Shown one piece after another: positions 17,639 to 28,310 of a stretch of 37,585 nt of DNA. The stretch spans positions 1 to 37,585 of the forward strand of contig JAFQID010000001.1 in the NCBI GenBank assembly GCA_017397685.1, given 5' to 3'. Position 1 is the first letter of the stretch. Each line of letters begins with the position of its first letter. A model generated the notes under the pieces. That model was not told where the DNA came from. It saw only the letters and a list, made by a program, of their open reading frames with translations, and searched no databases. The position numbers were made by a program, and so were the translations under genes. This stretch comes from Bacilli bacterium. Lineage in GTDB: Bacteria > Bacillota_I > Bacilli_A > RF39 > UBA660.

Positions 17639-18382
17639 CTATGAGGTAATATTCTTAAGAAAGTTTCTTGCCTTTATATTAATACCAGAATATTCACTTA
17701 TATAACTTTCTAAAATCTTATCAATTTCAAAAATAACATCAGTACTTATATCAATTTTACTTATTTTATTAATATCAATATACTTATACATTCTAAGCAT
17801 CTTAAGTACCTTCAAATTAACACTACATTCCCCTTCTACGCAATCACAGCAAACAAATCCACCCTTAGACTCTGAAAAGGTAGTTATCTTTTCATTACCA
17901 CACACAGCACATCTATCAACATTCAATCCTATTCCTAAATATTCAAGACATTTTAATTCTATAATATTACATATTACTTTAGGATTAAGCCCATCTTCTA
18001 TTTTTGATAAACCATTAACGAGCAAATCAAACAAATTACTTTCATTACTTTCTTTATATACTTCACTTACAAACTTGATTAAATAACTCATATAGCTATA
18101 ACGAACAATATTACTTTTAATATTAATAAAATAATTTTTAACATCACCATTAATTAATGTAGAAAGACCGTTTTCTTTATAAGACAAATTAAAAGTGCCA
18201 TAAGCAAAGTTTTCACTTATTAATCTATTAGGACTTTTAATACTTTTACAACCCTTTGAAACTACACCAATTATTCCATATTCCGGGGTAAATACGTTAA
18301 GTATTTTACTACTTTCTTTAAAAGGTGTACATTTAATAACTATTCCTTCTACACTTACTACTTTCATAATTAAAAAAAACAT
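17639..18382 (-). CDS. recO: DNA repair protein RecO
   Basis: RecO works with RecF and RecR to load RecA on SSB-coated gaps. The 247-residue product has an N-terminal OB-fold (VEGIVIKCTPFKESSKILNVF and GVVSKGCKS), a helical middle, and a zinc-binding cluster typical of Firmicute RecO (DRCAVCGN, then FVCCDCVEG). Two starts are possible. The ATG at 18382 has an AGG six bases upstream, but that AGG lies in the loop of the upstream hairpin. The ATG at 18367 (MKVVSVEG) aligns better with relatives but has no SD. It follows yqzL and era as in Bacillus. Confidence 0.92.
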   Translation of the reverse strand: MFFLIMKVVSVEGIVIKCTPFKESSKILNVFTPEYGIIGVVSKGCKSIKSPNRLISENFAYGTFNLSYKENGLSTLINGDVKNYFINIKSNIVRYSYMSYLIKFVSEVYKESNESNLFDLLVNGLSKIEDGLNPKVICNIIELKCLEYLGIGLNVDRCAVCGNEKITTFSESKGGFVCCDCVEGECSVNLKVLKMLRMYKYIDINKISKIDISTDVIFEIDKILESYISEYSGINIKARNFLKNITS

Positions 18383-18404
18383 AAGAAACCTATATTCTTA
18401 TGTT
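18372..18404 (-). terminator. Terminator-like hairpin between yqzL and recO
   Basis: A 10-bp perfect stem (18378-18387 with 18395-18404, AACATAAGAA/TTCTTATGTT) and a 7-base loop, followed by a run of T on the minus strand. It overlaps the yqzL stop codon at one end and the recO start at the other, so it may act as an attenuator or translational block for recO. Confidence 0.7.
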
Positions 18405-18483
18405 AGTTTCCTTTCTTATATTTTAAATAATATTCAATATTACCAGTTTCTTTAAACTTATTCCAAGCCTCTTCTTTATTCAT
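18403..18483 (-). CDS. yqzL: YqzL-like small protein
   Basis: A 26-codon frame starting at the ATG at 18481-18483 with a strong SD (AAAGGAG) 5-6 bases upstream. The product begins MNKEEAWNKFKETGNIEYYL and ends KYKKGN. It matches the YqzL family pattern (W-x-x-F-x-x-TG-x-I-x-x-YL) and lies between era and recO, the same place as in B. subtilis. The function of YqzL is unknown. It is too short for most gene finders and is easily missed. Confidence 0.8.
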   Translation of the reverse strand: MNKEEAWNKFKETGNIEYYLKYKKGN

Positions 18484-18493
18484 ATTTTCTCCT

Positions 18494-18512
18494 TTACAAT
18501 ATTATATTGCAA
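18494..18512. promoter_or_regulatory. Palindrome over a -10-like box upstream of yqzL
   Basis: TTACAATAT-T-ATATTGCAA is a 9-1-9 inverted repeat with one mismatch, immediately upstream of the yqzL SD. Its centre contains TATAAT on the minus strand (18501-18506), but no good -35 is visible at normal spacing. It may be an operator or just an RNA hairpin. Confidence 0.3.
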
Positions 18513-18530
18513 AGACTTTGAAAAAATTAT

Positions 18531-19415
18531 TCAGTTTTTTAAAAAATATCCAAGATCTTTAATAACTTTTTCTTTTTCTCTCCATTTTTTTATAGTTTTT
18601 ACATATAACTCAAGATAAACTTTCTTACCTAATAATTTTTCCATATCTGCTCTTGATTCAATTCCAATTTGTTTAATCAAATCACCATTTTTACCAAGAA
18701 TTATTTTACGCAAAGAATCTCTGTCCACTATAATATCTATGTATATATTGCATATATCTTCTTCATCATAAAAATCACTTAGAACACAAGAAATTTTATG
18801 TGGTACTTCTTCATTAGTATATAGAAATACTTTTTCACGAACGATCTCTGCAAGTCTAAAATCAAGCGAAGAAGTAGTAACTTCATCATCAGGAAAGTAT
18901 CTTACATTATCTGGAAGATACTCTTTTAAAACTTTAATAAGTCTATCAACGTTATCATTTTTCTTAGCCGATACAGGAATAATCTCTGCAAACTCATATA
19001 AGTTTTTATATTCATTAATTTTTAATAGTATTTCATCATCACTTAGTTTATCTATTTTATTTAAAATTAAAAATACTGGTTTTTTAACGTTTGCTAGTTT
19101 TTCAAGAATATATTTATCACCTTTTCCAAGTGCAACTGATGAATCAACAACAAATAATAAAATATCTACATCATTAATAGAATAATACGCTTGATAATTT
19201 AAAATTTCTCCCATCCTATCAACAGGTTTATGAATACCAGGAGTATCTACAAAAACTATTTGAGTATCTCCTTCGTTATAGATGCCTTCTACTAAAGTTC
19301 TAGTAGTTCCAGCTTTAGGAGATATGATTACAATTTTTTCACCCATAATAGTATTTAGTAAAGTACTTTTACCTGTATTAGGTCTACCTATTATACTAAC
19401 AAATCCACTCTTCAT
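18531..19415 (-). CDS. era: GTPase Era
   Basis: An essential GTPase that binds 16S rRNA near its 3' end and assists 30S assembly. The 294 residues have the usual form: G1 GRPNTGKS (10-17), the switch region KAGTTRT (34-40), G3 DTPG (57-60), NKID (~121) and the SAK motif, followed by a C-terminal KH domain with ILGKNGDLIKQIG. It overlaps the cdd stop by four bases. The cdd-era pair and ybeY/dgkA upstream are the classical Firmicute arrangement. Confidence 0.98.
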   Translation of the reverse strand: MKSGFVSIIGRPNTGKSTLLNTIMGEKIVIISPKAGTTRTLVEGIYNEGDTQIVFVDTPGIHKPVDRMGEILNYQAYYSINDVDILLFVVDSSVALGKGDKYILEKLANVKKPVFLILNKIDKLSDDEILLKINEYKNLYEFAEIIPVSAKKNDNVDRLIKVLKEYLPDNVRYFPDDEVTTSSLDFRLAEIVREKVFLYTNEEVPHKISCVLSDFYDEEDICNIYIDIIVDRDSLRKIILGKNGDLIKQIGIESRADMEKLLGKKVYLELYVKTIKKWREKEKVIKDLGYFLKN

Positions 19416-19792
19416 ACTAAATCCTCTTTACTAAATGTTGTTTTCATTATTTCATCAAAAGTTAAAACTTTCATCTTTCCACTCTTAGTCATAATATTAA
19501 ATATTACATCCTTATCAAAAAACTCTAAAAATGTTTGTTTACAAATATTACATGGATAACATATTTCATCACTACTTGTCATTAAATATAGTGCTTTAAA
19601 CTTTCTTATTCCATGACTAATCGCATTATTAATCGCATTTCTTTCCGCACAAATAGTACCTCCGAAAGATGCATTTTCAATATTAACTCCTTCAAAAAAA
19701 TCTCCAGATTCACTTTCAACAATAGCTGCAAATTTCATATTAGAATATGGACTATAACTATTATCCAATAATTCTTCTAACTTTTCTCTCAT
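19412..19792 (-). CDS. cdd: Cytidine deaminase
   Basis: A zinc enzyme that deaminates cytidine and deoxycytidine to uridine in pyrimidine salvage. The 126-residue protein is of the homotetrameric class. The zinc and catalytic residues are visible: C48-A-E50 (TICAERNAI) and P80-C81-x-x-C84 (YPCNICKQ). N-terminal SPYSNMKFAA matches the substrate-binding S-PYS-F/KxAA motif. The stop overlaps the era start as ATGA. It lies 11 bases after dgkA. Confidence 0.97.
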   Translation of the reverse strand: MREKLEELLDNSYSPYSNMKFAAIVESESGDFFEGVNIENASFGGTICAERNAINNAISHGIRKFKALYLMTSSDEICYPCNICKQTFLEFFDKDVIFNIMTKSGKMKVLTFDEIMKTTFSKEDLV

Positions 19793-19803
19793 ACTAAACT
19801 CCT

Positions 19804-20202
19804 TTAAAATAAACTTATAACTTTAGGTAAAAAAATTATAATTCCTACAATAACCGCAACAATCGCAAGAATAAATACCGCAGCTGCTGAAGTGTCTTTT
19901 GCTACCTTTGCTAGTGGATGGTACTCCTCAGTTACTAAATCAACAACAGCCTCAATAGCTGTATTAAATAACTCAGCTGATATTACAAGACCTACCGTAA
20001 ATATAAGAAATGCCCATTCAACAACACTTATTTTAAATATAATACCCATAACTATTACAAAAATAGCCATAAAGCAATCAAATGCAAGATTTTGTTCATT
20101 TCTATAAGCATATTTTAGTCCTTTAATTGGATAAGTAAAACTATTTAAAAATTTCTTTATTCCTTTGATATTCTTTCTTTCATCTCTTGACATCATATTC
20201 AT
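19804..20202 (-). CDS. dgkA: Undecaprenol/diacylglycerol kinase (DgkA family)
   Basis: A small membrane kinase; in Gram-positives it mainly phosphorylates undecaprenol, feeding the lipid carrier for cell-wall synthesis. The 132 residues include a soluble N-terminus, FTYPIKGLKYAYRNEQN, and three TM helices. The catalytic ELFNTAIEAVVDLV and YHPLAKVAKDTSAAAV motifs are intact. The ATG at 20202 has GGAGG about 9 bases upstream, inside ybeY, giving a 23-base overlap with that gene. Confidence 0.95.
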   Translation of the reverse strand: MNMMSRDERKNIKGIKKFLNSFTYPIKGLKYAYRNEQNLAFDCFMAIFVIVMGIIFKISVVEWAFLIFTVGLVISAELFNTAIEAVVDLVTEEYHPLAKVAKDTSAAAVFILAIVAVIVGIIIFLPKVISLF

Positions 20203-20629
20203 TTAGAATTTCCTCCTCTAAAGATCTCATAACTTTCTTATCTTCTTCATTCATATGGTCATAGCCTAGAAGGTGTAAAAGACCATGAACAGTTAAATAA
20301 CATATTTCTCTTCTTTCACTATGTCCATATTCTTCTGCCTGCTTTCTTGCTTTTTGAAGCGATATATATATTTCTCCCAAAAATCTAAAATTATCATATT
20401 CAATATCTTTATAATCTTCAAAAGCAAAAGATATAACATCAGTTACATTATCTTTTCCTCTATATTCTCTATTAATTTCTTGTATTTTATTATTATCTAC
20501 TATTAATATATTTAATATTGGATTACAAACATCTAACTTATTAAACGTTATCTTACAAACGTTATCTATATCATCAATAGTTAAATCATCAACAGTCTCA
20601 TCAGTTAAATTAATAATATAATCTTCCAT
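20180..20629 (-). CDS. ybeY: Endoribonuclease YbeY (16S rRNA maturation)
   Basis: A metal-dependent RNase for 16S rRNA 3'-end maturation and ribosome quality control. The 149 residues carry the signature HGLLHLLGYDH with the three zinc-binding histidines H115, H119 and H125. Conserved REYRGKDNVTDVISFAF and LGEIYIS are also present. The usual phoH neighbour upstream is absent; instead a VanZ-like gene and yqfD precede it. Confidence 0.97.
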   Translation of the reverse strand: MEDYIINLTDETVDDLTIDDIDNVCKITFNKLDVCNPILNILIVDNNKIQEINREYRGKDNVTDVISFAFEDYKDIEYDNFRFLGEIYISLQKARKQAEEYGHSERREICYLTVHGLLHLLGYDHMNEEDKKVMRSLEEEILNEYDVKR

Positions 20630-20638
20630 TATTACTCC

Positions 20639-21250
20639 TTATAATACTCCAAAAATGCTTAAGCAATACCCTATAATAACAATTATAAATAAAACACTAA
20701 CTATATTATAAAATACATCTTTTTGCATAAATTTAGGAAGTCTTCTTTTAATCGCATCAAAAGCTATAAAAACTAAAAAACCTATTATTCCACCAACAAC
20801 ATTTAATATTATATCATCAATATCAAAACATCTACCTATAAAATATTGAACAGTTTCAATAATTGAACTACATAGTAATGTAATTATTGTTATTCCTCCA
20901 ACACCTTTTATTCTAGCATAACTAGTTGCAAAATAACCAAAAGGTACAAATAACAAGATATTTCCTATTACTTGTCTATAAAAATTATAACTTCCTATTT
21001 CGTATCTAAATATTTCTTCAAACGGTCTTAAATTAAATCCATTTCCAAAATAAACATCCTGCTCAACAACTAATTGGAATAGTGCAAGTATATATGCAAA
21101 AAATAATAAAGAAAATAATTCCTCATGAAGAACCATTTTTTTATCACTTTTCATAAAATAACTAACTCTAAGTATAATAACTATAGAAAGTACTATCACA
21201 AGCGTAGGCCAAGATAAATTAAGTACCTCTATTAGAGTTTCCTTCATCAT
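20639..21250 (-). CDS. VanZ-like membrane protein
   Basis: 203 residues with about five predicted TM helices. The VanZ-family pattern is clear in the middle: VIGNILLFVPFGYFAT, the SSIIETVQYFIGR segment and FDIDDIILNVVGGIIGF. The family is named after the teicoplanin-resistance accessory protein, but most members have no known role and there are no van genes here. The start has GGAGG 6 bases upstream and overlaps the end of yqfD by 32 bases, so it is translated as part of the yqfC-yqfD unit. Confidence 0.85.
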   Translation of the reverse strand: MMKETLIEVLNLSWPTLVIVLSIVIILRVSYFMKSDKKMVLHEELFSLLFFAYILALFQLVVEQDVYFGNGFNLRPFEEIFRYEIGSYNFYRQVIGNILLFVPFGYFATSYARIKGVGGITIITLLCSSIIETVQYFIGRCFDIDDIILNVVGGIIGFLVFIAFDAIKRRLPKFMQKDVFYNIVSVLFIIVIIGYCLSIFGVL

Positions 21251-22388
21251 ATAATTCCTCCTCTACAACCAAAACCTCTCCAATATTTTCATAAACTTTA
21301 AAAAATATTTCTAATACTATTTTACTACTAAACTCTTCTTTTTTCAAAACTTTTTTGGATATTATATATTCATCAGATAAAAGTTTATTTTTAATCTTTG
21401 CATCAGCCCTTTTAATAGCTTCATTATAAGTTTCTTCTTTACTTAATTTATAGTTTTTATATTCATAAATACTTTTTTCTTCTTTATATAATTTGAAAAA
21501 TAAATATGGTTTATCAATAATTAGTTTTTTATTACTCATAACATTATTAGAATCGTATTTTCCCATTATAGTAAACTCTTTACCAAAAATATCTAAATAA
21601 TAATGATTAATTATCTTTCCAGTATTAATGTATTCAGTAAAGTTATAAGGAACACTTATATTTACCGTATACCATACTTCAGCATATACATTACCTGAAG
21701 CACAAACTTTATTTTTAATAGTATCTTCACCTTTAATTATATTACCACTAATAATAATATCCCCTTTTTTAACATAATCATTTATTGCTTTTAATTTTTC
21801 TCCTTTAGATGATGTAATATGTTTAATAAGCCCATCTTTTTTAGCAACAATATGACAAATATTATCATTTAAATTATTTTCTTTTCCCTTAATTCTTTTA
21901 GTAATCATAATTTCATATTTACATCCAATTTCTTTAATTTCAATCCATTCTAAATCATCTTTGTTTTCTTCAAGTATCTTTTCTTTAATAAAAGAAATTT
22001 CTTCAAAACTTTTCTTTTTTTTATATTTTAAAATATCATACTTCCTTAAAGAATTAGAAATAGTTTCATATAAATTATCATCATCAGTATTAATAACAAC
22101 ATCAAAAATAGTATTTTGTAAAATACTAATTAAAATTATTCCCCAAATCAAACTAACAAACATATATTTATACTTATTAAAAAAATAATATAGTCCTTTT
22201 TTTCCATAATATTTTAAAATAGTACAATCATATCTTCTTCTTATTCTCTTATAATTATCATAACTAGTGTATAAATAATAACAATTATCATGAACTTCCA
22301 AATTATCAAAATCAATTTTATATAAGGTTAAATACTTAATAAAACTCTTCATATTGGTATTAACTTTAATATATACTTTATTCATCAT
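21219..22388 (-). CDS. yqfD: YqfD-like protein
   Basis: 389 residues from the ATG at 22386-22388 (MMNKVYIKV), with AAAGGA about 10 bases upstream. It has a soluble N-terminal ~90 residues, a single TM segment (~MFVSLIWGIILISIL) and a large second domain with ENKDDLEWIEIKEIGCKYEI and DNICHIVAKKDGLIKHI, then VKKGDIIISG, as in the YqfD family. In B. subtilis yqfD is in a sporulation-associated operon beside yqfC and phoH. Whether this organism sporulates cannot be seen here. It overlaps yqfC by 11 bases and the VanZ-like gene by 32. Confidence 0.85.
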   Translation of the reverse strand: MMNKVYIKVNTNMKSFIKYLTLYKIDFDNLEVHDNCYYLYTSYDNYKRIRRRYDCTILKYYGKKGLYYFFNKYKYMFVSLIWGIILISILQNTIFDVVINTDDDNLYETISNSLRKYDILKYKKKKSFEEISFIKEKILEENKDDLEWIEIKEIGCKYEIMITKRIKGKENNLNDNICHIVAKKDGLIKHITSSKGEKLKAINDYVKKGDIIISGNIIKGEDTIKNKVCASGNVYAEVWYTVNISVPYNFTEYINTGKIINHYYLDIFGKEFTIMGKYDSNNVMSNKKLIIDKPYLFFKLYKEEKSIYEYKNYKLSKEETYNEAIKRADAKIKNKLLSDEYIISKKVLKKEEFSSKIVLEIFFKVYENIGEVLVVEEELYDEGNSNRGT

Positions 22389-22617
22389 TAAAATCAATTC
22401 CTTTAATTTTACCGGTAATAAGTAGTTCTCTATTATCAAGTTTTTTTATATTTAAATTATCACCTTTTATAAGTAGATAACTATCAAATAGTTCAATTTT
22501 AATAAAACTATTACTTAAATCAATTACATTTTTATAATTCATAATATATATTTTTCCATTGCAAATATTTATTTCATATTCATTATTATTAATAAACTTA
22601 AAAATATTCTTTATCAT
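22378..22617 (-). CDS. yqfC: YqfC-like protein (YabP/YqfC family)
   Basis: A 79-residue β-rich protein starting MIKNIFKF. It carries the family pattern: a 'NICNGKIYIMNYKNVIDL' stretch, then SFIKIELFDSYLLIKGDNLN and LLITGKIKGIDF. It belongs with yqfD, its usual partner. The start at 22615-22617 has no SD and lies only 6 bases after a -10 box, so the transcript may be leaderless. The open frame extends upstream to 22677, but those codons would read through a terminator stem and are rejected. Confidence 0.75.
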   Translation of the reverse strand: MIKNIFKFINNNEYEINICNGKIYIMNYKNVIDLSNSFIKIELFDSYLLIKGDNLNIKKLDNRELLITGKIKGIDFNDE

Positions 22618-22623
22618 AATATA

Positions 22624-22653
22624 ATTATATTTTTTTAATATTAATAAATGCAA
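22624..22653 (-). promoter_or_regulatory. yqfC-yqfD promoter
   Basis: On the minus strand TTGCAT (22648-22653), an 18-base spacer and TATAAT (22624-22629). The predicted transcription start falls at or next to the yqfC ATG (22617). The -35 box begins in the T run of the upstream bacteriocin terminator. Confidence 0.6.
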
Positions 22654-22672
22654 AAAGAGGGATTTCCCTCTT
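22651..22672 (-). terminator. Intrinsic terminator of the bacteriocin operon
   Basis: A stem AAGAGGG/CCCTCTT (22655-22661 with 22666-22672) with a tight 4-base loop, followed by T-rich sequence on the minus strand. It overlaps the stop codon of the last bacteriocin peptide. Confidence 0.8.
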
Positions 22673-22823
22673 AACATGCTTTTTTAGTAATATGTCTTCT
22701 AAGTGAAGAACCAAGCGCTCTTCCTAGTTCTAGTGCTAGATCAAATGCTCTTACAAGTGCACTTATAACCGCTCCTGATAATGAAGCACCTCCATATACT
22801 AATTTTAATTCTTCATAGTTCAT
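22671..22823 (-). CDS. Double-glycine bacteriocin precursor, peptide 1 (50 aa)
   Basis: A 50-codon gene too short for usual ORF lists. The start has a strong SD (AGGAGG, 6 bases upstream). The leader MNYEELKLVYGG ends in Gly-Gly with the hydrophobic spacing (L6, L8/V9) typical of C39-processed leaders. Cleavage would release a 38-residue peptide, ASLSGAVISALV...ITKKAC. It is amphipathic, with a GxxxG motif (G34-R-A-L-G38), a basic C-terminus (RRHITKK) and a terminal cysteine. Class IIb two-peptide bacteriocins use GxxxG motifs for helix pairing in the target membrane. Its partner is likely the peptide at 22834-22971. Activity is inferred. Confidence 0.85.
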   Translation of the reverse strand: MNYEELKLVYGGASLSGAVISALVRAFDLALELGRALGSSLRRHITKKAC

Positions 22824-22833
22824 TAAATACCTC

Positions 22834-22971
22834 CTAATTACATTTTAATTTTCTAAAATATCCATCGGCAACTCCGATTAAAAAAGCAACTATAAGTCCT
22901 ACTGTACCAAGTATTACTCCTTTACTCGCACCTCCAGTGCAGTTAATTAACTCTTCATTTTTTAAAATCAT
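22834..22971 (-). CDS. Double-glycine bacteriocin precursor, peptide 2 (45 aa)
   Basis: A 45-codon gene with a good SD (AAAGGAG, ~6 bases before the ATG). The leader MILKNEELINCTGG ends in Gly-Gly; the predicted mature peptide has 31 residues, starts ASKGVILGTVGLIVAF and ends RKLKCN. The middle is a hydrophobic helix with two GxxxG motifs (G18-V-I-L-G22 and G33-V-A-D-G37); the end is basic with a cysteine next to last. This fits one half of a class IIb bacteriocin. The gene lies 13 bases after the exporter and 10 before peptide 1. A separate possibility is a signalling peptide, but no kinase/regulator pair is nearby. Confidence 0.85.
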   Translation of the reverse strand: MILKNEELINCTGGASKGVILGTVGLIVAFLIGVADGYFRKLKCN

Positions 22972-22984
22972 ACCGCTCTCCTTT

Positions 22985-25000
22985 CTAAAAATTAATTACT
23001 TCATCAAAACATTCACAAATTTCTTTCTTATGTGAAATATAAATAATGCACTTGTCTTTATATGACTTTCTAATATTTTTAATTAATATCTTTTCTTCAT
23101 CAGGACTAACTTCACTAAATGCTTCATCTAATAAAATATAATTAGATTTTTTAAGTAAACTTCTTGCCACTATTACTTTTTGTCTTTCACCACCACTTAG
23201 GTTGAATCCATTTTCCTCTATCATAAAATTATCGCGTAGTTTATTATTATCTCTAATTTTATCAATATGACATAATTTTATTACTTTCTCATATTCTGTT
23301 TGAGACGTATCTCTAAAATAAATGATGTTATTTTTAAGGGTGTCATTATTTAGATAATTATTTTGAGAAACATAAGTAAATGAGGAGGCTATTATACTAG
23401 CATCTATATCTTTTATATTGATATCATTTATATAAATGTTACCATTATAATCTGTTAGATATTTAAGAATAATTTTAAGTATTGTACTTTTGCCTCTTCC
23501 AGAAGGAGCGTATATCATAATATGTGAATTATAATTTATATATAGATTAATATCTTTAAATAAAATGTCTTTATTATTATAACTAAAAGATAAATTACTT
23601 ATATTAATATCTCCACGAATCATCTGACTATCTTCTTTAATTTCTTCTCCTGAAAACATAATTAAACTATTAATTCTATTAATAATTTCTTTAATATAAT
23701 TAATGTTAGGAAGTAAACTCATTATGTTTTTAATTGGATCAATGAAATATAAAATTAATGAATTAAAAATAATAAAATCACCAATAGTAATATATCCAAG
23801 ATTGATATAATAAATTCCAAATAATATTACAAATATCTGACACAAAGAGATAATAATATCTTTAATTAAATACTCTTTTATAAATAATTTATCATAAGAA
23901 CTATTAGCTCTTATATACTTATTAAAAACCATTTCATTTTTCTTACAAATATCTCCAAGTAAATTAATATTCTTATTAGTTTCATATCCATATATTGACT
24001 CAGAAATGTTTTTATTATATTCATCACTACTCATCTGTACATCATATATTTTACTTTTAGATAATTTATAAAAAATAATGGATATAATAATAAAAATAAT
24101 CATAAAGCATAAAGTAATAATAAACATATTTATATTAATATAACAAAGGAAAAATATACTAAAAATCATAAATAAAACATCAGTTATTACGTTTATAAAC
24201 ATAGAAATAATATCTCTTAACTTATCAATATCGTTAGCCCTGTTTACAACTTCTCCAGTAGCTTTATTTTTAAAGAAAAGATAAGGAAGACTAAATAAAT
24301 GTCTAAAAAATTTGTTATTAAGATTTTTACTTAAAGAATTATTAATAAAAATCAACTTATTCATACGAAAATAATCACAAATACTTTTAATAAAAATAAT
24401 TATAATAAAAATAATAAATACTAAAATATTAAACTTATAATTGTCTATAAAATATTTTAAAATAATATAATTTAGTAAGGACAAAATGATTACAATTAAA
24501 GTAATGAGTGATAGCACTATTATATTTCTTTTAATGCTAAATAAACTGTTAATAAAATATGATTTAAAATTATTTTTAGCGCATCCTATTATTTTTTTAC
24601 ATGGATAAATAACTAATATAGTACCTAAAAACATTTCTTTAAAATTATCTTTAGAAATCTTGACAAATCCAACTTCTGGATCCATAATTAATATCTTCTT
24701 TTCTATTTTGTAAATAACTATAAAATGATACATATTATTTTTAATAACATGAGCAATAATTGGAAACGTTCCAAGACTTATCATTTCATCCATAGAACAT
24801 TTCATACCATATCCATCAAAACCTAAATATCTAGATGCACAAATTATGTTATAGGCGCTTGTTCCATTATTATCAGTTTTCATAATATAAGCTAGTTCAT
24901 CAAGCGATACATCACCTCCATAATGTCTAATAATTGATAATAAACAACTTGCTCCACAACTTTTAAAACTATTTTGTATTACTTCGCACTTCTTAAACAC
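22985..25000 (-). CDS. Peptidase-containing ABC exporter for double-glycine peptides (PCAT)
   Basis: 671 residues from a GTG start at 24998-25000 with GGAGG about 7 bases upstream. The N-terminal C39 peptidase (~1-125) has Q9, C15 (KSCGASC), H92 (YHFIVIY) and D107 (MDP), the full catalytic set. A six-TM ABC transmembrane domain (~150-440) follows. The nucleotide-binding domain has Walker A APSGRGKST (first Gly is Ala), signature LSGGERQK, Walker B YILLDEAFSEV and the H-loop ISHKKE. It cleaves after Gly-Gly and exports the core peptide in one protein. The two small substrates are encoded directly downstream in the same operon. The NBD ends soon after the H-loop, so the C-terminus is short. Confidence 0.95.
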   Translation of the reverse strand: MFKKCEVIQNSFKSCGASCLLSIIRHYGGDVSLDELAYIMKTDNNGTSAYNIICASRYLGFDGYGMKCSMDEMISLGTFPIIAHVIKNNMYHFIVIYKIEKKILIMDPEVGFVKISKDNFKEMFLGTILVIYPCKKIIGCAKNNFKSYFINSLFSIKRNIIVLSLITLIVIILSLLNYIILKYFIDNYKFNILVFIIFIIIIFIKSICDYFRMNKLIFINNSLSKNLNNKFFRHLFSLPYLFFKNKATGEVVNRANDIDKLRDIISMFINVITDVLFMIFSIFFLCYININMFIITLCFMIIFIIISIIFYKLSKSKIYDVQMSSDEYNKNISESIYGYETNKNINLLGDICKKNEMVFNKYIRANSSYDKLFIKEYLIKDIIISLCQIFVILFGIYYINLGYITIGDFIIFNSLILYFIDPIKNIMSLLPNINYIKEIINRINSLIMFSGEEIKEDSQMIRGDINISNLSFSYNNKDILFKDINLYINYNSHIMIYAPSGRGKSTILKIILKYLTDYNGNIYINDINIKDIDASIIASSFTYVSQNNYLNNDTLKNNIIYFRDTSQTEYEKVIKLCHIDKIRDNNKLRDNFMIEENGFNLSGGERQKVIVARSLLKKSNYILLDEAFSEVSPDEEKILIKNIRKSYKDKCIIYISHKKEICECFDEVINF

Positions 25001-25754: not shown

Positions 25755-25788
25755 TTTAAAAAATAAACATATTTAAAAATGTTTATTT
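25755..25788 (-). terminator. Intrinsic terminator after ymfH
   Basis: A 10-bp perfect stem AAATAAACAT/ATGTTTATTT (25761-25770 with 25779-25788), an 8-base loop and a T run on the minus strand. It overlaps the ymfH stop codon. Confidence 0.75.
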
Positions 25789-27054
25789 CTCATCATTAAC
25801 AACTATTACACTATAATTATCAAACTTTAACTTTTTCATAACATCAAGTGCTTCTTCGTACTTTAGTGACATAATATCATTATATACATTAGGATTAATC
25901 TTATTTTTATCTATTATATGATCAGTAATTAAAGACTCAACATTAATAATATCATCAAACTCTAGTATATAACTTTTTAGATATAATTTTTTCTTTCTTT
26001 CAAAATCTTCTTTAGATAAAGTTAAATGATTTATATCTTCATTAATTCTATCAACAAACTTTTTAGCATCATAAGTAGTAGCATTAACGCTAATTACTAA
26101 ATGATTATCAAATATTCCTTTAGATATTCCAAGACCAAGAACTAATTTTTCATTAATATATTTATCATATAAAACTGAACCACATGAAATATTAGATGAT
26201 AAAATAATATGAATATAAGCATATAACTTATTATTATCTTTTATATTAAATATTTTTTTATTAATCTTATATCCAATTCTTACCTTAGGACATGATACTC
26301 TTTTATATACTTTTTCTAAGTTAACTTTAATATTATCTTTTTCTCTTTTCTTTATTACTTTAGGTGCTTTTTTATTTTTAAGTTTTAAGCCTTTAATATA
26401 ATCATTTATTACATTATAAACTTTATCTTTATCAAAAGAACCACACACTGTGATAAAAGTATTTTCAGGAACATAAAAATCATCATAAACTTTCATAAGT
26501 TTCTTATATGTAAGACTATTTATATCATCTTTTGTTCCAAGTATAGTATTATTCAAATAACTACTATTAAACAAATTATCAAAAAGTCTAAATGAAACCA
26601 TAGTTTCAAGTCTATCATTTGTCATATCAATTTCTTCACAAATTATACCTTTTTCTTCCTCAACATTTTTTAGTGTAATATTTGGTTTATAAAACATATC
26701 TAAAAGTAGTTTAATACTTTCTTCTATATTCTCACTACCATATAAATTATAATTTGTTACGTCCCATGATGTATAAGCATTAGCTTGAAGTCCAAGGGAA
26801 TTAATCATATTAACTATTCTTGGATCTTCAGAAAAAGACATAACTTTATGTTCTAAAAAATGAGCACTACCTGGAATAACATCATAAATATTATCCCCTA
26901 ACTTATATTTCATAACTTTTGCGCCAAATTTAACAGTAATAGTTATATAAAAGTTTTTTGTTTTATTAACAGGATATAAATATAAATCCACTTGATTATT
27001 AATTTTTTCATAATAGATATTTTCATCTACTTTATCAAAAACTATTTTTTTCAT
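25783..27054 (-). CDS. ymfH: M16-family zinc peptidase (YmfH type)
   Basis: 423 residues of the insulinase/mitochondrial-processing-peptidase type. The inverted zinc motif is complete: H65-F-L-E68-H69 in GSAHFLEHKVM, with a downstream glutamate in NVEEEKGIICEEIDM. This is the catalytic member of a pair with the gene upstream, overlapping it by four bases (ATGA). In B. subtilis ymfF-ymfH lie close to spoIIIE/ftsK, as here. The substrate is not known. Confidence 0.92.
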   Translation of the reverse strand: MKKIVFDKVDENIYYEKINNQVDLYLYPVNKTKNFYITITVKFGAKVMKYKLGDNIYDVIPGSAHFLEHKVMSFSEDPRIVNMINSLGLQANAYTSWDVTNYNLYGSENIEESIKLLLDMFYKPNITLKNVEEEKGIICEEIDMTNDRLETMVSFRLFDNLFNSSYLNNTILGTKDDINSLTYKKLMKVYDDFYVPENTFITVCGSFDKDKVYNVINDYIKGLKLKNKKAPKVIKKREKDNIKVNLEKVYKRVSCPKVRIGYKINKKIFNIKDNNKLYAYIHIILSSNISCGSVLYDKYINEKLVLGLGISKGIFDNHLVISVNATTYDAKKFVDRINEDINHLTLSKEDFERKKKLYLKSYILEFDDIINVESLITDHIIDKNKINPNVYNDIMSLKYEEALDVMKKLKFDNYSVIVVNDEK

Positions 27055-28310
27055 TCAAGTTCTCCTTTCATGAAATATATAACACTTAATTTTAATCTTT
27101 TAGCAAGATTTACAATATCATCACTACCAACTTCTAATAACTTATTTCTATAAGATTCAATATCAAGTACACTAGCAAATTCATTCATATAAACATTATT
27201 AATTTGTCCTATTAAATCATCATAATAACTATTTAAACTAGTTTCAATATTATGTCTAGCCGCATCAAGTAATGTATCAATTAGTGCTTTATTTTTTAAA
27301 GATAAAACACATTCTTTAATAATATTAATTGCTTTTTCTTTATTATCTTTATTTATACCGGAATAAATGGTTAAAGATGGATTATATCTATTAATATAAG
27401 ATGAAATATTATAACATAGACTATTCTTTTCTCTAACAGTATCAAATAAGATTGAATTATTCATAGAACCAAGAATCATATTAAGCACTCTAAAAGTATA
27501 ATAGTCTTTTTCATCAGAATAATTATCTACTGTGTATCCTAAATAAATCTTAGATTGATTAAAAGGCATAGTATTTTCTTTTTCAATAACTTTATTATTA
27601 TGTTTATTGTTAACGAATATGTTATACTCATTTTTGTTAGCCTTTATATTATCAAAATACTTTTCAATATATTTAACTAATTGTTCACCTTCTAATCCAT
27701 GTATAATAACATCAATTTTATAACTTCCATCAAAAAGTTTTTTATAATGTTTATATAGTTTCTTCGAACTGACCTTTTCAATATCTTCTACGGTAGAATA
27801 AACAGAATACTCATTAGGAGTTCCTTTATACATAATTTTATTATATTCTAAAGAAGAATAAAGTCTAGGATTAGTAACAATATTTTTACATTCAGTAATA
27901 GACTGCTCTTTAATAAGTTTTAGTACATCTTCATCAAAAGCATCATCTTTTATATTAGGATTAAATAACACTTCCATAAACATATCTATTGACTCTCTCA
28001 TAGTTTTTTCATCTGTGTACCTTGGATTAAGAAACTCTAAAGTAAACTCATTAAATCCAACATTACCAGTATAGGAACAACTACTCATAATATTTATACC
28101 ATATAAATCCTCTATTCTTTTTATCATTTTAGATTTTGTATTATATTTTTTTGTACTGTAAACCAAAATAGATTTAAGTATTTTATCATAAGCAAGATCT
28201 TCACTATTAAAGTTTTTTGCGAATATAACTTGCACTACGGTACTTTTAAACCTATCTGAATCAATAACATGAATATTATAATTTTCTTTTTCAATTTTTT
28301 TATAGTTCAT
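27051..28310 (-). CDS. ymfF: M16-family peptidase-like protein, inactive partner (YmfF type)
   Basis: 419 residues with the M16 fold pattern but no HxxEH; the corresponding region reads SEDLAYDKILKSILVYSTKKY. Later conserved segments include YKGTPNEYSVYSTVEDIEKV and the MPFNQSKIYLGYTVD region. M16 enzymes of bacteria often work as an active/inactive heterodimer, which fits the overlap with ymfH. The SD GAGG lies just before the ATG. Confidence 0.9.
   Translation of the reverse strand: MNYKKIEKENYNIHVIDSDRFKSTVVQVIFAKNFNSEDLAYDKILKSILVYSTKKYNTKSKMIKRIEDLYGINIMSSCSYTGNVGFNEFTLEFLNPRYTDEKTMRESIDMFMEVLFNPNIKDDAFDEDVLKLIKEQSITECKNIVTNPRLYSSLEYNKIMYKGTPNEYSVYSTVEDIEKVSSKKLYKHYKKLFDGSYKIDVIIHGLEGEQLVKYIEKYFDNIKANKNEYNIFVNNKHNNKVIEKENTMPFNQSKIYLGYTVDNYSDEKDYYTFRVLNMILGSMNNSILFDTVREKNSLCYNISSYINRYNPSLTIYSGINKDNKEKAINIIKECVLSLKNKALIDTLLDAARHNIETSLNSYYDDLIGQINNVYMNEFASVLDIESYRNKLLEVGSDDIVNLAKRLKLSVIYFMKGELE

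Follow-up and report, generated by a model that had tools for sequence, protein, structure and literature searches.

Locus architecture and the two peptides

The window analysed here, a whole stretch of 37,585 nucleotides from a Bacilli bacterium of the family UBA660 (GCA_017397685.1, contig JAFQID010000001.1), carries on its minus strand a gene for a C39-peptidase-containing ATP-binding cassette (ABC) transporter, or PCAT, followed by genes of 45 and 50 codons for two double-glycine precursors, peptides 1 and 2, and by a terminator-like hairpin (Table 1). Judged from related genomes, the exporter and the two precursors form one unit that is inherited and lost together. A preliminary description, made from the sequence alone, had reported a PCAT exporter with two tiny double-glycine peptide genes at this place, with strong ribosome-binding sites, leaders ending in Gly-Gly, mature parts starting with Ala-Ser and a terminator directly behind, and all of these parts are present. 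Terminator-like sites number two in the region against 0.2 expected.

The exporter has the make-up of a PCAT, with an N-terminal C39 domain containing the Cys, His and Asp residues, a transmembrane domain and an ABC ATPase (Pfam E-values 1.6e-28 for Peptidase_C39, 1.7e-25 for ABC_membrane and 2.7e-22 for ABC_tran), and its catalytic residues, both Walker motifs and the signature are all intact. Among 39 exporters of the family the His and Asp are invariant, and the Cys is present in all 36 that cover that stretch. The NCBIfam models TIGR01193 (323 bits) and NF045998 (288 bits) both score below their own cut-offs. Such an exporter is expected to cleave double-glycine leaders and to export the peptides.

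Peptide 1 consists of the leader MILKNEELINCTGG and the mature part ASKGVILGTVGLIVAFLIGVADGYFRKLKCN, and peptide 2 of the leader MNYEELKLVYGG and the mature part ASLSGAVISALVRAFDLALELGRALGSSLRRHITKKAC; the leaders end in CTGG and VYGG, respectively, and the median leader length is 15 residues. Both peptides are cationic, peptide 1 being very hydrophobic and peptide 2 amphipathic. GxxxG motifs are found in both, as previously claimed, but the counts had been reversed: the 45-mer has two (GVILG and GVADG) and the 50-mer one (GRALG). In a single genome such motifs are weak evidence, because 48% of shuffled mature sequences of peptide 1 and 14% of those of peptide 2 contain at least one. Among homologues, the motif occurs in 54 of 55 distinct peptide 1 sequences and in all 54 of peptide 2, at one aligned position per peptide. 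The glycines of these motifs (GxxDG in peptide 1, GRxxG in peptide 2), the last glycine of the leader and a cysteine near the C-terminus (55/55 and 54/54) are invariant or nearly so; the Asp of GxxDG is kept in 50 of the 55 sequences, with Glu in two more, and the Arg of GRxxG in 52 of the 54. Exactly one cysteine is present in the mature part of 51/55 and 52/54 sequences, respectively. The charged motif residues and the single cysteines invite, but do not prove, a model of a helix pair held by an Asp-Arg contact and a disulfide. One genome (L098, G179), the only such case sampled, combines a change of the peptide 1 Asp to Ser with a change of the peptide 2 Arg to Glu, possibly a compensatory pair.

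Table 1. Features of the exporter-peptide unit and its downstream context (positions within the window)
Feature	Positions	Strand	Basis
C39-peptidase-containing ABC transporter (PCAT), 671 aa, GTG start	22985-25000	-	Pfam, NCBIfam profiles, conserved catalytic residues
C39 peptidase domain, residues 7-133, with Cys15, His92, Asp107	24602-24982	-	Pfam and relatives
Shine-Dalgarno-like AAAGGAG, 5' of peptide 1	22978-22984	-	sequence
Peptide 1 precursor, 45 aa	22834-22971 (leader 22930-22971, mature 22837-22929)	-	alignment of 55 sequences
Peptide 1 GxxDG; invariant Cys44	22861-22875; 22840-22842	-	alignment
Shine-Dalgarno-like AGGAGGT, 5' of peptide 2	22829-22835	-	sequence
Peptide 2 precursor, 50 aa	22671-22823 (leader 22788-22823, mature 22674-22787)	-	alignment of 54 sequences
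Peptide 2 GRxxG; invariant Cys50	22710-22724; 22674-22676	-	alignment
Intrinsic-terminator-like hairpin, directly 3' of the peptide 2 stop	22655-22672	-	terminator scan
yqfC-like gene, first of the conserved downstream block (context, outside the module)	22378-22677	-	Pfam YabP
Downstream block yqfC, yqfD, vanZ-like, ybeY, dgkA, cdd, era, recO	17639-22677		Pfam YabP, YqfD, VanZ, Era-type domains

Conservation, synteny and joint loss

Profiles built from the homologue alignments were searched in 243 genomes of the family (148 genera). Of these, 222 encode peptide 2 and 221 encode peptide 1; for either peptide the positive genomes span 141 genera and almost always have a single copy, and the order-level sample gave 138/146. 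The exporter was found in nearly every family genome in a search of 60 relatives, and the fetched loci keep the order exporter-(accessory)-peptide 1-peptide 2, so that the peptides, their Gly-Gly leaders and the gene order, for which the preliminary description had advised a search of relatives, are conserved. One genome has an apparent tandem duplication of the peptide pair, with four consecutive frames, two resembling peptide 1 and two resembling peptide 2 (G085:C2:22889-23450). Complete relatives of either peptide were not found beyond the family in class or phylum samples of 296, 198 and 177 genomes, where matches are limited to the leader and the first residues.

Genomes that lack the peptides also lack a full-length exporter of the window type and have at most fragments of it, mostly at contig edges; in six near-complete ones, a search for any C39 domain gave nothing in five and a weak match within a 1073-residue frame in one. 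The unit is retained or lost as a whole. In agreement with vertical inheritance, distances between exporters correlate with those of YqeY, a housekeeping protein encoded nearby (r=0.65, with none of 2000 permutations as high) and with those between the peptides (r=0.60), and the peptides have a mean pairwise identity of about 45%, compared with about 35% for the exporter. In close pairs of genomes all three genes are under purifying selection, with dN/dS (nonsynonymous/synonymous rates) of 0.03/0.65 for peptide 1 and 0.12/0.43 for peptide 2 in the closest pair and of 0.15/0.94 and 0.16/0.91, respectively, in another.

In 40 fetched loci, in which genes were named by sequence recognition, the unit is flanked upstream by rsmD-side genes in 13 and downstream by yqeY in 19 (rpsU-yqeY). 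The alternative flank, yqfC-yqfD-vanZ-ybeY-dgkA-cdd (+ era), is that of the window, and the order of this downstream block is repeated in some relatives. Although yqfC-yqfD adjoin the unit, we do not favour a link with sporulation: Mollicute-like genomes have exporters at this place too, and Mollicutes are a non-sporulating group. Upstream of the unit, at 25783-28310, the window has two adjoining genes of 423 and 419 residues, the first of which contains the inverted zinc motif known from M16 peptidases (HFLEH), and a ribulose-phosphate epimerase-like gene lies between the exporter and this pair.

A sporadic or mobile bacteriocin cluster is ruled out by the near-universal single copy, the synteny, the distance correlation and the absence of peptide 2 from the plasmids searched. 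It could also be argued that neither small frame is a gene and that the exporter has other cargo, as the frames are short, lie in an AT-rich genome and were called from sequence alone; however, the conservation of both peptide profiles over 141 genera rules out chance open frames and, together with the purifying selection, the ribosome sites and the joint loss with the exporter, leaves this reading a negligible probability.

Accessory gene, related exporters and candidate cargo in Mollicute-like bacteria

In about two-thirds of the fetched loci, a gene for an accessory protein of 136-172 residues lies between the exporter and peptide 1. It is present in most other genera sampled and absent beside the exporter in the window and in its genus. 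NCBIfam MAG1140 (NF045999) matches 10 of 23 of these genes (best 1.1e-5), and the reverse search recovers the same genes in place. AlphaFold2 predicts a transmembrane helix and a small beta domain for the accessory protein of relatives (predicted local distance difference test, pLDDT, 73), with weak PDB matches that include membrane-fusion proteins (E > 0.05, TM-score <= 0.43). Because the protein is encoded between exporter and peptides, resembles MAG1140 and is present in Mollicute-like genomes without adjacent peptides, we take it to be a partner of the exporter, and a role as immunity protein was set aside.

The second-best NCBIfam match of the exporter is also to a mycoplasma family, Mbov_0121 (NF045998; 287.7 bits against a cut-off of 500). 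In Mycoplasma-like genomes, in which TGA is read as Trp, an exporter and a MAG1140 gene lie directly before ybeY-cdd-era, and in Spiroplasma-like and Erysipelotrichales-like genomes an exporter lies at the same place. A first exporter tree had too few outgroups, and since it did not clearly separate the family from bacteriocin-type exporters, such exporters from plasmids and other Bacilli were added for the final, unrooted tree. Loci L163, L164 and L166 of other Bacilli offer a useful contrast, as they are typical bacteriocin-type C39 loci in which the double-glycine peptides are longer and a partner of 345-360 residues is encoded. In the final tree, a 100/100 branch separates the family and the three ybeY-linked lineages from the bacteriocin-type exporters. 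Being unrooted, the tree is compatible with common descent of the window exporter and the Mollicute-like exporters but does not prove it. A common origin of the window exporter and the ybeY-linked C39 exporters of Mollicute-like and Erysipelotrichales-like bacteria is probable. A literature search by the locus names Mbov_0121, MG390 and MPN571 found no functional work.

No peptide adjoins the ybeY-linked exporters of these lineages. Leader matches did, however, reveal that each genome encodes a single leader peptide at a conserved site (loci L179-L194 and L207-L235; families f4, f7, f13, f15 and f18): valS-peptide-radC-(rplU) in f7, f13 and f18, greA-rsmI-peptide-rplU-ysxB-rpmA in f4, and in f15 either ahead of rplU or in the rpmE-lspA interval. 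The mature parts of these peptides have a common helix and a KG...W[ED]-type end, and most belong to no curated family, the one match being a weak one to the MPN313 family (E 0.0018). In f7 (L221, L226, L228-L230 and L232-L234), the valS-radC peptide keeps the helix and the C-terminal motif and the Gly-Gly is degenerate (PGE, VGE, VGA). All peptide-bearing genomes of f4, f13, f15 and f18 tested have a C39 domain match, although that of G604 does not reach the cut-off. The window's own genome has no detectable peptide of the valS/rplU type. By synteny and co-occurrence, the valS-radC or rsmI-rplU peptides are candidate cargo of the ybeY-linked C39 exporters.

According to the published reconstruction of JCVI-syn3A, there is no double-glycine peptide that could be cargo of its C39 transporter 0401, nor is there one in other mycoplasmas, which led the authors to propose another function for it (PMC6609329). 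We hypothesize, at roughly even odds, that a vertically inherited C39 exporter with double-glycine cargo is an ancestral, non-bacteriocin secretion system common to the gut family, to Erysipelotrichales-like bacteria and to Mollicutes, including near-minimal mycoplasmas, the Mollicute cargo being the peptide beside rplU, which in the gut family would have been replaced by, or relocated as, a pair beside the exporter.

Function of the module and comparison with known systems

The preliminary description had classed the peptides as a class IIb two-peptide bacteriocin. The architecture, the leaders, the aligned GxxxG motifs and the cationic character agree with that claim, whereas the core distribution, the lack of an immunity gene and a similarity confined to the leader do not. 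The locus resembles class IIb loci in that a C39 exporter is encoded together with a pair of adjoining, different peptides that have double-glycine leaders, and each peptide has a GxxxG or GxxxG-like motif, as do all characterised class IIb bacteriocins (PMC6382864). The full peptide 1 of one relative also exceeds the TIGR03949 cut-off (23.6 against 21.5 bits). In the window, peptide 1 reaches 18.6 bits against this cut-off and peptide 2 matches no curated class IIb family; the similarity of peptide 1 is gone once the leader is removed, and the mature parts alone, searched against bacteriocin families, match nothing. A dedicated immunity protein is described as protecting the producers of two-peptide bacteriocins (PMC6957408), but no immunity gene is found in the window unit and none is conserved across the 40 neighbourhoods. 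Also, most of the plasmid-borne bacteriocin-type exporters fetched are accompanied by a large HlyD-type or accessory protein, which is absent here; genes for CAAX-type peptidases are found beside such exporters as well. With the near-universal single copy and the purifying evolution added, it seems rather unlikely that the pair is a family-wide class IIb-type bacteriocin that inserts as a pair into target membranes and kills competitors, its producers being protected by an unlinked gene or an insensitive receptor of their own. A literature search for RF39 and bacteriocins found nothing relevant. The peptides might instead act as signals between cells, in the manner of the pheromones ComC and BlpC, as double-glycine peptides exported by PCATs are described as serving both signalling and competition (PMC7018657). 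However, the two peptides are structurally conserved, not short and variable, and no two-component system or receptor gene is conserved beside the unit in the 40 neighbourhoods, which makes a pheromone role improbable.

A housekeeping system is likelier than an ordinary bacteriocin because the set is single-copy, vertically inherited and near-universal, has no immunity gene and has a related exporter at the same place in mycoplasma-like bacteria. With moderate confidence, we favour a conserved core-genome module for the secretion of two peptides that is probably not a classical bacteriocin; the bacteriocin identity is not established, and the distribution makes a conserved physiological role the likelier one. 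Such secreted peptides, present in nearly all genomes of a reduced-genome family, are likely to be important for life in the gut, and both of their genes are short enough for gene callers to miss.

Several points weigh against the secretion-module reading. The class IIb hallmarks of charge, GxxxG and leaders are present in both peptides, which might be a bacteriocin of the core genome whose immunity gene lies elsewhere. Within the exporter tree, the branch of the window family adjoins the bacteriocin-type exporters, so that a root placed elsewhere would group the two. The accessory-MAG1140 match is below the cut-off of the model, and the window's genus has no accessory gene. Between the mature parts of peptides 1 and 2 and the Mollicute-like peptides there is no demonstrable homology, the likeness being limited to the leader and a general helix pattern. 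The labels Mycoplasma-, Spiroplasma- and Erysipelotrichales-like were inferred from genetic code and family names, and the joint change of Asp and Arg occurs in one genome only. Lastly, what we observe are genes, conservation, selection, synteny and joint loss, from which we infer export, cleavage, pairing and function.

In the module as we picture it, the C39 domain would, with high confidence, cut both precursors after Gly-Gly, and the transporter would export peptides of 31 and 38 residues. With moderate confidence, the two peptides would then associate in a membrane outside the cell, where the GxxDG of the hydrophobic peptide 1 helix would face the GRxxG of the amphipathic, cationic peptide 2 helix; Asp and Arg may touch, and a disulfide may join the two invariant cysteines near the C-termini. 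Most tentatively, the pair might have a conserved role on the cell surface, either of the producer itself or of its kin, for example in the envelope, in adhesion or in signalling.

Among known systems, class IIb bacteriocins such as lactococcin G, plantaricin S and the lactobin A/cerein 7B family share with the module a small cationic helical pair, double-glycine leaders, GxxxG and a C39 exporter. In contrast to them, the module has no immunity gene and no large HlyD-type accessory, each peptide has an invariant near-C-terminal cysteine, the unit belongs to the core genome as a single copy and the mature parts are unrelated by profile search. EbfG1-4 and PteB of Synechococcus elongatus offer a likeness in kind, with no sequence relation shown, as double-glycine peptides exported by a C39 transporter have a physiological role there, in biofilm formation (PMC4997328); unlike the pair described here, there are four of them, without homologues in other cyanobacteria and without a two-peptide GxxxG pair. 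On distribution, a conserved physiological role of this kind appears likelier than a bacteriocin. Mbov_0121 and MAG1140 of mycoplasmas share the ybeY-cdd-era neighbourhood, the side of the 100/100 branch in the unrooted tree and an accessory that is homologous in the window's relatives, but the window exporter scores below the Mbov_0121 cut-off, its genus lacks the accessory, and the peptides adjoin the exporter in the window family and lie elsewhere in the genome in Mollicute-like bacteria. JCVI-syn3A, compared by description, likewise retains a C39 exporter in a minimal Mollicute genome, and in similar genomes the present analysis finds leader peptides at a conserved site; for 0401 itself the authors proposed import of lipoyl-lysine (PMC6609329). 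The leader peptides are thus specific candidates for what mycoplasma C39 exporters transport, and they make this annotation question accessible to a simple test.
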